From: Bacillota bacterium | GTDB taxonomy: Bacteria; Bacillota_I; Bacilli_A; Izemoplasmatales; Hujiaoplasmataceae | Reading direction: 5' to 3' | Length of the DNA: 35,863 nt | Assembly (NCBI GenBank): GCA_003245625.1 | Contig: QKCT01000048.1 | Coordinates: 1-35,863, forward strand | In this document: positions 7,585 to 35,514 of the stretch, one piece after another | Numbering within the stretch: the first letter of the stretch is position 1 | How the letters are laid out: each line of letters opens with the position of its first letter | Made by a program: the position numbers and the translations under genes | The notes under the pieces: model-generated | What the model was told of the DNA's origin: nothing | Databases searched by the model: none | Seen by the model: the letters and a program-made list of their open reading frames with translations, nothing else

Positions 7585-7603
7585 ACCATCACAAAAACTT
7601 CAA

Positions 7604-7632
7604 TTGACACTTTGGAAATCTTGTGTTATTAT
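7604..7632 (+). promoter_or_regulatory. Promoter of candidate small RNA
   Basis: TTGACA (7604-7609), 17-nt spacer, TATTAT (7627-7632); no ORF follows before the terminator. Confidence 0.8.
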
Positions 7633-7637
7633 GTTAA

Positions 7638-7729
7638 CGCAACGAAAAGTTGCATTTCCCTGAAAGTGTTAATATAACACTTACCCTTCCTGAATTCGCT
7701 TCTTACCCTAGAAGCGAATTTTATTTTCC
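7638..7729 (+). ncRNA. Candidate ~90-nt small RNA with three hairpins and C-rich single-stranded segments
   Basis: Promoter just upstream; hairpins GCAAC-GAAAA-GTTGC (7639-7653), AAGTGTTA-ATA-TAACACTT (7664-7682), AATTCGCTTCT-TACCCT-AGAAGCGAATT (7693-7720) followed by TTATTTT. Confidence 0.75.
7693..7728 (+). terminator. Intrinsic terminator ending the candidate sRNA
   Basis: 11-bp perfect stem, 6-nt loop TACCCT, T-rich tail. Confidence 0.85.
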
Positions 7730-7744: not shown

Positions 7745-7755
7745 TATGATATAAT
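7745..7755 (+). promoter_or_regulatory. Extended -10 promoter for ftsY
   Basis: TATGATATAAT (TGn + TATAAT at 7750-7755); no clear -35. Confidence 0.65.
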
Positions 7756-27435: not shown

Positions 27436-27535
27436 GCCGTAAAAAATACACACATCCATGAGTGATTTATCGTGAGCCCCAAGGGTGATAATAGCGTTGA
27501 TTGGGTGGAGGCAAACATCAAAAGGAGGAAAAGAA
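27436..27535 (+). promoter_or_regulatory. Structured 5' leader of rpsB, candidate autoregulatory element
   Basis: CATCCA (27453-27458) can pair with TGGGTG (27502-27507); inside, TTATC/GATAA and CCC/GGG helices. Confidence 0.5.
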
Positions 27536-28603
27536 ATGGGAGTCATTTCAATGAAAGCCCTGTTAGAAGCAGGCGTACATTTTGGACACCAAACTAGAAG
27601 ATGGAACCCTAAGATGGGAAAATACATCTACACTTCTAGAAATGGAATCCACATTATTGATTTGCAAAAAACCAGCGACTTGATCGACGTTTCCTACAAA
27701 GCATTGTTTGATATCGTATCCGAAGGTGGAGAAGTTCTCTTCGTAGGTACAAAAAAACAATCACAGGAACCGGTCAAAGAAGCGGCAGAAAGATCTGGAC
27801 AATACTTTGTGAATCAAAGATGGTTGGGAGGAACGTTGACCAACTTTAAAACAATCAAACGTTCAATCAAGAAACTGCAAGATCTTTACAAAATGGAAAG
27901 CGATGGAACATTCGATGTTCTACCGAAGAAAGAAGTTATCGGACTTCGTAAAGATATGGCACGTTTGGAAAAATTCCTTGGTGGTATCAAGGATATGAGA
28001 AAATTGCCACAAGCACTTTTCATCATCGATCCTAGAAAAGAAAGAAATGCTATCTTGGAAGCAAGAAAACTGAATATCCCTGTATTTGGAATCGTTGATA
28101 CAAACTGCGATCCTGATGACGTGGATTATTTGATTCCAGCCAATGACGACGCATTGCGTTCTGTACGTTTAATCGTTGATAAAATGGCTGACGCTGTTAT
28201 CGAAGCTAGTGGTGGAGTAGTAAACAAAGACGAATCCGCTGAAGAAGATCTTGATGCCGATTTAGACACAGATGCAGCTGATGATGACGATCAAGACGAT
28301 GAAGACGTAGCTCCAGTAGCGAAAAAAGTCGTTGTTAAGGTAAAACCGGAACCAAAAAAAGTGAAACCGGCTGCACCGAAAGCAGAAGTCGTTGAAGAAG
28401 CTAAGGTTGAAGAAAAACCAGCTCCTGCTCCACAACCAAAAGAAGAACCAAAAGTGGAAGCTCCAGTTGTTTCAAAACCTGAAGTTGATTTGGAATCAAT
28501 GACCGTAGCTGAGCTAAGAGATTTAGCAAAAGCGAAAGATTTAAGCGGTTATTCCAAACTCAAAAAAGCAGAATTAATAGCTGAAATCAAAAACGTATTG
28601 TAA
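27536..28603 (+). CDS. rpsB: Ribosomal protein S2 with a long acidic/Pro-Lys-rich C-terminal extension and Rho_N-like end
   Basis: '[41 protein letters not shown]', '[13 protein letters not shown]', '[26 protein letters not shown]'; SD AAAGGAGG before ATG 27536. Confidence 0.97.
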
Positions 28604-33747: not shown

Positions 33748-35514
33748 ATGTTTATTACCCTAGCGATATGGCAAACTTTAGGAAATATTATTATTTTCTT
33801 ATTGGTATTGAGTCTTGTCATTAACATTCATGAATTGGGACATTTATTCTTTGCAAAAAGAGCAGGGATTTTATGTCATGAATTTGCGTTTGGAATGGGT
33901 CCAAGACTTTGGAGCAAAAAAGTCGGAGAGACTATCTATTCCATTCGTGCCATCCCATTTGGTGGTTTTGTATCTATGGCGGGAGAAGAAATCGAATCGG
34001 ATATTGTGAAAATCGGACAAAAGATTCGATTGGGATTCGATCAGGATAACGAAGTTAATCGAATCATTCTTAATTCAGCCGATACCAATTATCACGATTT
34101 CTTAGAAGTAAAAGTGGAACAGGTGGATTTATCCAGTGAAGCGGGAAATCGACTCTTTATTAATGAGTATACAGTCAAAAGAAATGCAATGTATGTGGAT
34201 GGAAAAACCCATTTGCAAATTGCACCAAAAGATCGTAGCTTTAGTTATAAGACCAAATGGCAGCGATTTAGCGCAACGTTTGGCGGTCCTTTGATGAATT
34301 TTGTTTTAGCTTTTATCGTTTTCTTGACAATGTCATTTATCATTGGCGTTCCAGATTATGATAGTTCCGTTATTGCAGATGTTTCAGAAGGTTCACCGGC
34401 AGCCGAAATCTTACAAGCTGGAGATAAGATTATCTCAATCAATGGAGTGGATGTGACTTCTTGGGGTGGAGAAAGCAACTCTGTAAACAGTGAATTATCC
34501 AAAGATGTTAATAGTTATGTTATCGTTGTGGAACGAGATGGAAGTATTGTGACATTGCAAGCAATATCTCCACAATATATTTTTTATGGTTTAGGTTTTA
34601 CGTCTACTGTTGGAACGGATGAATTGATTATTGATACACCACTTTATCTTGATACGGAAATTGCAAGTGGGGATATTATCCTTTCGATTGATGGAATCGC
34701 TATGAACTCGTGGGACGATGTCATCGCCTATTCAGATGCACATCAAAATGGTTCCACGGATGAGAATCCAACCGTTATTGAAGTTGAGCGGTCGGTTACT
34801 TATGCAACGGTTGAAGGATTAGTTACCGACGTCAGTGTAGATGCGACCACAGGTTATGTTACAATTACTGTACTAAAAGATGAATGTAATTTCTTCTGTC
34901 AAGTGTTTGGTAGAGAATACACAACAATGATATTAAAAGGTGGAGAAACTGATCTTATTAACGTAGGTGCACATATTGATGCAAATACTCCAGTAGGACG
35001 CAATGCAGTTTATACGATTTCTTATGTGGCTTACGGATCAGATGTTTTGGATGCACAAGGCTACGATTATTTCTATTCTCGTATTGGCATTACCAGTTCT
35101 TCCAAGTTTAGTTTCTTTGGAAGTTTTGGAACTGCGTGGTCCTCTTTTGTAAATGCTGGAACATCGATTTTTAAAACCATTGGTTTGATGTTCTCTTCCG
35201 ATCAAGTTGGCGTGTCTGATTTGTCTGGTTTTGTTGGGATTTTCTCGATGACTAGCAGAGCGGCAGCGGGAGGATTTGTCAGTCTTCTTTCTTGGATTGG
35301 ATTCTTGAGTATTAACCTCGGTATTGTCAACCTGTTGCCTATACCAGCGTTAGACGGAGGAAGACTAGTCTTTATTGGTTATGAGGCAATTACGAAGAAG
35401 CGCCCAAATCAGAAATTCGAAAATCTATTGCATACAATTATGTTCTTCTTATTAATGGGATTTTTGATTTTTATTACCTATAACGATATATTGCGATTAT
35501 TTGGTATTAAGTAA
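33748..35514 (+). CDS. rseP: Site-2 metalloprotease RseP/RasP, enlarged, with two PDZ-like regions
   Basis: 'NIHELGHLFFAKRAGI', 'GGPLMNFVLAFIVF', 'SPAAEILQAGDKIISINGVDV', 'NLLPIPALDGGRLVFIGYE'. Confidence 0.95.
   Translation: MFITLAIWQTLGNIIIFLLVLSLVINIHELGHLFFAKRAGILCHEFAFGMGPRLWSKKVGETIYSIRAIPFGGFVSMAGEEIESDIVKIGQKIRLGFDQDNEVNRIILNSADTNYHDFLEVKVEQVDLSSEAGNRLFINEYTVKRNAMYVDGKTHLQIAPKDRSFSYKTKWQRFSATFGGPLMNFVLAFIVFLTMSFIIGVPDYDSSVIADVSEGSPAAEILQAGDKIISINGVDVTSWGGESNSVNSELSKDVNSYVIVVERDGSIVTLQAISPQYIFYGLGFTSTVGTDELIIDTPLYLDTEIASGDIILSIDGIAMNSWDDVIAYSDAHQNGSTDENPTVIEVERSVTYATVEGLVTDVSVDATTGYVTITVLKDECNFFCQVFGREYTTMILKGGETDLINVGAHIDANTPVGRNAVYTISYVAYGSDVLDAQGYDYFYSRIGITSSSKFSFFGSFGTAWSSFVNAGTSIFKTIGLMFSSDQVGVSDLSGFVGIFSMTSRAAAGGFVSLLSWIGFLSINLGIVNLLPIPALDGGRLVFIGYEAITKKRPNQKFENLLHTIMFFLLMGFLIFITYNDILRLFGIK

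Follow-up and report, generated by a model that had tools for sequence, protein, structure and literature searches.

A conserved small RNA gene with exposed C-rich segments in the topA-ftsY gap of Izemoplasmatales

Introduction

What is encoded in the short gap that separates topA from ftsY and the SRP operon in Izemoplasmatales? The question was raised by an earlier note on a DNA stretch of 35,863 nucleotides (contig QKCT01000048.1 of assembly GCA_003245625.1, family Hujiaoplasmataceae), here called the window. The note, made from the letters alone, placed a candidate undescribed small RNA with C-rich segments in the gap. The analysis reported here makes it near certain that the topA-ftsY RNA is a real, conserved and uncatalogued sRNA gene. 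What such an RNA may do is discussed in the light of known sRNAs of Gram-positive bacteria and of the alternatives.

Results

Organization of the locus

At window 7604-7727 the topA-ftsY gap carries a promoter, an RNA of about 90 nt featuring three hairpins, and an intrinsic terminator, all on the + strand. The promoter (7604-7632) is of the sigma-70 type, TTGACA-N17-TATTAT with an extended -10 TG. The hexamers TTGACA (7604-7609) and TATTAT (7627-7632) are separated by a spacer of 17, and 11 of 12 consensus positions are matched. An extended -10 of the TRTGnTAnnAT type recurs at the same position in most homologues, and sister-family copies are preceded by TTGACA-N17-TATTAT-like promoters. Immediately 5' of the -35 is found a box fitting TCACAAAAnCWTCA (7589-7602, + strand). 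Of the 16 homologous loci, 14 have the box, which contains TCACAAAA, with few mismatches; L005 and L006 lack it. The pattern is rare in the whole genome of the relative G007, where one of its 3 occurrences is at the sRNA locus, and no such box was noticed among the listed promoters of sister-family copies. The box is possibly a regulator site.

The whole RNA spans 7639-7727 (+ strand, about 88-90 nt), and is matched by the covariance model R1 described below at 7640-7725 with 66 bits. The expected 5' end is occupied by hairpin 1 (7639-7653; GCAAC-GAAAA-GTTGC, 5 bp). It is followed by C-rich region 1, TTTCCC (7655-7660, in a segment extending over 7655-7663), by hairpin 2 (7664-7682; AAGTGTTA-ATA-TAACACTT, 8 bp), by C-rich region 2, ACCCTTCCT (7683-7691, in a segment extending over 7683-7693), and by hairpin 3 with its T-run (7692-7727). 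The stem of hairpin 3 (7692-7721) has 11 Watson-Crick pairs plus 1 G-U, and encloses the loop TACCCT (7704-7709). Hairpin 3 with the T-run is the sole terminator called in the scanned region. A separate extended -10 of ftsY (TGATATAAT, 7747-7755, + strand) is located 3' of this terminator, and a TATGATATAATAC-like extended -10 is kept at ftsY in most relatives.

The 91-nt strand has a minimum free energy of -28.6 kcal/mol, a value that 0 of 200 shuffles reached; the shuffled sequences gave -7.8 +/- 2.3 (z = -9.2). Both C-rich regions are predicted to be unpaired. Mean unpaired probabilities are 0.94 for TTTCCC and 0.96 for ACCCTTCCT in the window sequence, and at least 0.8 in most sequences, the exceptions being L006 and, for segment 1, L015. 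The longest reading frame inside the window RNA has 3 codons, and none is common to homologues. The coordinates, promoter and C-rich segments given in the earlier note agree with the sequence; its three stems of 5, 8 and 11 bp, the last a terminator, are confirmed by folding and by the terminator call, and its view that the RNA hosts no credible ORF stands.

Other features of the window are worth recording. At 70-2061 a GdpP-type protein, with GGDEF, DHH and DHHA1 domains, and a complete ribosomal protein L9 share a single reading frame, which may be either a true fusion or an assembly frame error. The ribosomal protein S2 encoded at 27533-28603 is extended at its C-terminus by a long stretch rich in charged residues and proline, with a Rho_N/SAP-like domain at its end. 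The product of 33748-35514 is an RseP-like M50 protease (588 aa) that contains a PDZ domain and also a long insertion.

Conservation within the family

A DNA search covering 34 genomes of the window's family returned same-genus matches of 81-88% identity, and pieces in two further genera, all located in the topA-ftsY gap. The covariance model R1 was seeded with eight sequences from two other genera, the window's genus being left out. It identified exactly one copy per genome, at the topA-ftsY locus, in 16 of 16 genomes across three genera. No comparable score was found elsewhere in the order or in the family's other eight genera, and a class sample of 395 genomes gave no further match at E <= 0.01. 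The topA-ftsY gaps of L039-L042, read directly, lack the RNA.

In the alignment of the 16 homologues, which was fitted to the model and whose counts therefore favour it, 97.4% of the cells pair and 11 of 25 pairs feature two-sided changes (35 cells). Out of 500 shuffles, none came up to these pairing and covariation values, and sliding of the partners lowers pairing to 36-44%. The earlier seed alignment of 8 sequences, made with no model fitting, gives the same picture. Two-sided changes are found among the 16 homologues at 4 of 7 model pairs of hairpin 1 and at 6 of 12 pairs of hairpin 3. Hairpin 1 is represented in the sister family by 37 different sequences among 39 copies, every one of which pairs. 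The lower stem of hairpin 2 is invariant within the window's family, and is re-paired with a different sequence in other families.

Mean identity among the 16 homologues is 0.98 for TTTCCC, 1.00 for ACCCTTCCT (9 of 9 positions identical), 0.97 for the hairpin 2 stem, and 0.54-0.73 for the loops. More distant copies also carry the CCCTTCC of C-rich region 2. CCC is found in the terminator loop of 4 of 16 homologues, and this loop is therefore outside the conserved design. Of the repeated exposed CCC motifs that the earlier note had described, those in the two inter-stem segments are near-invariant and mostly unpaired, while the one in the terminator loop must be dropped. Conservation in relatives and compensating stem changes, which the note had named as its own test, are documented by the family search, by R1 and by the 16-sequence alignment.

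A wider family

In more distant genomes the gaps 5' of ftsY feature the same layout, with TATCCCCTACA and CCCTTCCT flanking a different hairpin 2. A pattern search identified 13 genomes in two other families, and the reversed control pattern gave zero matches. One of these two families again has its RNA next to topA or ftsY, the other at different places. The model R2, built on the distant form and run on a phylum sample, matched the sister family in the window's own order and, in two genomes from the window's family, a second copy. The sister-family form is longer. The broader model R3, seeded with no window-type topA-ftsY sequence, picked it up in 47 of the 49 genomes of that family, with E < 1e-14 in most cases and with 1 to 4 copies, and also identified members in other families of the class. 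Class and phylum matches with E above about 1e-3 have been taken as unreliable; several of the weak ones, among which are L350, L351 and L380-L382, are chance matches. Forty sister-family loci were inspected; 33 have topA on one side and ftsY or ylxM on the other, and the remaining 7 adjoin one of these genes.

The models of the two forms recognize each other's loci. R1, run on 44 distant loci, gave 42 matches, 41 of which are on the RNA gene and strand; R3, run on the 16 window-type loci, gave 12 matches, and 12 of 12 agree with the RNA gene in place and strand. The best two R3 matches in the complete genome G007 are its two RNA genes, the sister-type at 67 bits and the topA-ftsY copy at 14 bits, the latter score alone corresponding to E = 3. 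The relative strain zrk2, whose genome is complete (CP076020.1), has both forms. Taken singly, scores from one form to the other are weak, and the argument rests on the agreement in place and strand plus the common locus. Because the reciprocal matches agree in both respects, the two forms are regarded as one family, and the window-type RNA is very likely the local version of a wider family that includes the sister-family RNA at the same locus.

Extra copies away from topA-ftsY are present in some genomes. The presence of copies in unrelated contexts argues for a stand-alone gene. One subtype, found in genomes of two families, is located just 3' of a recombinase-like gene (L426:1501-1566; L375:1486-1551; L378:1502-1567). 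The upstream ORFs are related in all three, and the L426 gene (L426:3-1463) encodes a serine recombinase (PF00239, PF07508, PF13408). A tRNA or tmRNA is found within a few hundred bases of the copy in each. The arrangement suggests that recombinase-linked copies may be carried at the end of integrative elements. In another genome (G245) two diverged RNA copies lie about 520 bases apart (L362:1502-1567 and 2020-2087).

Comparison with known RNAs

No Rfam family (Rfam 15) was matched at gathering threshold in the window and its relatives, and at relaxed thresholds only chance-level matches fell at the RNA. No description of an sRNA at the topA-ftsY locus was found in openly licensed papers. On the Rfam result, the RNA can be called undescribed, as the earlier note had it.

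RsaE/RoxS is a small Gram-positive RNA in which several conserved C-rich regions pair with ribosome-binding sites (PMC4409812). The topA-ftsY RNA likewise features two or more conserved, exposed C-rich segments between hairpins, but sequence and hairpin layout are unlike those of RsaE/RoxS. The corresponding model RF01820, which recovered the B. subtilis control, was above cut-off in 0 of 20 genomes and gave no match in the window; in G209 an sRNA locus is overlapped by one match below threshold (E = 8.8, 14 bits). The RNA is outside RsaE/RoxS by covariance model. Two further traits of RsaE/RoxS are transcription under ResD/SrrA control, on which the box 5' of the -35 may bear, and mRNA targets from redox or central metabolism, on which the target predictions below may bear.

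LhrC1-5 of Listeria carry redundant UCCC motifs and a single-stranded stretch between stem-loops, and are present in multiple genomic copies (PMC4132741). C motifs and a single-stranded stretch between stem-loops are found here too; as to copy number, the window type is single and the wider form is present in 1-4 copies in some genomes. In contrast, LhrC binds via the loop of stem-loop A and the terminator loop, and the RNA described here has no Rfam match. The LhrC set of three redundant UCCC sites, one of them in the terminator loop, is not a feature of this RNA, whose terminator loop has CCC in only 4 of 16 homologues. The iron-sparing sRNAs IsrR (Staphylococcus) and FsrA (Bacillus) have exposed C-rich regions, terminator hairpins and Shine-Dalgarno pairing (PMC9410917). 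Exposed C-rich regions and hairpins with a terminator are shared, Shine-Dalgarno pairing being here a prediction; the sequence differs, and two IsrR C-rich regions sit in hairpin loops. The RNA family is new; its type, should it act as predicted, is the already known one of the C-rich Gram-positive sRNAs.

Predicted targets

Targets were predicted in the complete genome G007 and in part of the window genome. For both segments, most pairings predicted in G007 are at Shine-Dalgarno positions, about -20 to -10. Any Shine-Dalgarno sequence can pair with a C-rich segment, however, and pairing position alone is weak proof. At -10 kcal/mol, segment 1 pairs in G007 with 113 start regions against a shuffle mean of 34, a count that equals the highest of 15 shuffles. 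No segment 1 excess over shuffles was found in the partial window genome, and for most segments the genome-wide counts of complementary start regions are not clearly above those of shuffled segments. Perfect complements of at least 8 nt are not in excess over shuffles either, and in 314 orthologue pairs between G007 and the part of the window genome the predicted strength is no better conserved than for shuffled segments. A few redox-type and iron genes rank high in one genome; they were chosen after the fact and are without significance. A pattern scan of viral contigs was discarded as too unspecific.

Discussion

We favour the hypothesis that the locus is a free-standing gene for a non-coding C-rich sRNA of about 90 nt, masking Shine-Dalgarno regions in trans, and assign to it a probability of about 0.62. 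Its own promoter would start transcription and its own terminator would end it. The three hairpins would keep two near-invariant single-stranded segments, TTTCCC and ACCCTTCCT, open. These segments are similar to the anti-Shine-Dalgarno end of 16S rRNA; in trans they would bind the purine-rich Shine-Dalgarno regions of several mRNAs, at positions of about -20 to -10, and block translation. The computation shows the make-up of the gene, its conservation, the compensating changes in its stems, the common locus in a sister family and the additional copies; that the RNA is transcribed, pairs with mRNAs and represses them, and which targets it has, is inferred. Shine-Dalgarno pairing in trans, taken by itself, is a probable prediction because of the precedent of RoxS, IsrR and LhrC (PMC4409812, PMC9410917, PMC4132741).

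The main rival, unlikely in our judgement, is that the C-rich segments and the lower part of hairpin 2 make up a binding site through which the RNA would titrate or regulate an RNA-binding protein. C-rich region 2 and the neighbouring stem are indeed invariant as a block, beyond what pairing with many mRNAs needs, and the mRNA target signal is weak. In low-GC Gram-positives, however, exposed C-rich motifs next to a terminator are known to be the mark of sRNAs that pair with mRNAs (PMC4132741, PMC9410917), and no candidate protein was found in the analysis. The target counts bear also on a different idea, that of a global mimic lowering translation generally rather than that of specific mRNAs. 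The anti-Shine-Dalgarno sequence of 16S rRNA is CCUCCUUU, which CCCTTCCT resembles, and the likeness would fit such a mimic, as would the excess of segment 1 pairings in G007. Yet this excess is mild, linked to composition, and missing from the partial window genome, and a general mimic does not need two distinct conserved segments, which makes the idea improbable.

Two other alternatives start from the neighbourhood. Two families keep the RNA 5' of ftsY and a third does so in part, as would be expected of a cis-acting leader or attenuator of ftsY and the SRP operon, or of an RNA acting on its neighbour ftsY, as the earlier note had also considered. But the RNA has its own promoter and terminator, behind which lies the further extended -10 of ftsY; ftsY start regions, ranked by complementarity, come out near the 35th percentile in either group; and many copies lie at other places, copies with no ftsY nearby among them. 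The neighbour-acting role is thus not borne out, and any cis role looks quite improbable. Neighbourhood with ftsY and ffh is likewise the only point in common with the small SRP RNA of bacteria (RF00169). A component of the signal recognition particle is hardly conceivable at this locus, where RF00169 has no match, as a normal SRP RNA, encoded by its own separate gene, scores above threshold elsewhere in 7 of 7 genomes tested; the earlier note had rightly set SRP RNA aside.

The favoured reading, a C-rich sRNA acting in trans, leaves room for a more speculative view of the extra copies. An old regulator of the order might have been kept beside topA-ftsY, and copies of it captured by integrative elements beside a serine recombinase, host and element competing via the same C-rich regulator; we consider this scenario doubtful.

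Trans-acting sRNAs are rarely conserved across long distances, and RsaE has been described as the sole one, besides 6S RNA, common to Staphylococcus aureus and Bacillus subtilis (PMC4409812). The sRNA gene described here can be traced at the same locus through most sister-family genomes, and more weakly into other families of the class. The diverged and the recombinase-linked copies are a natural comparison set. For Izemoplasmatales and their relatives, which are little studied, the RNA would be a first candidate core sRNA with defined, mutable functional segments.
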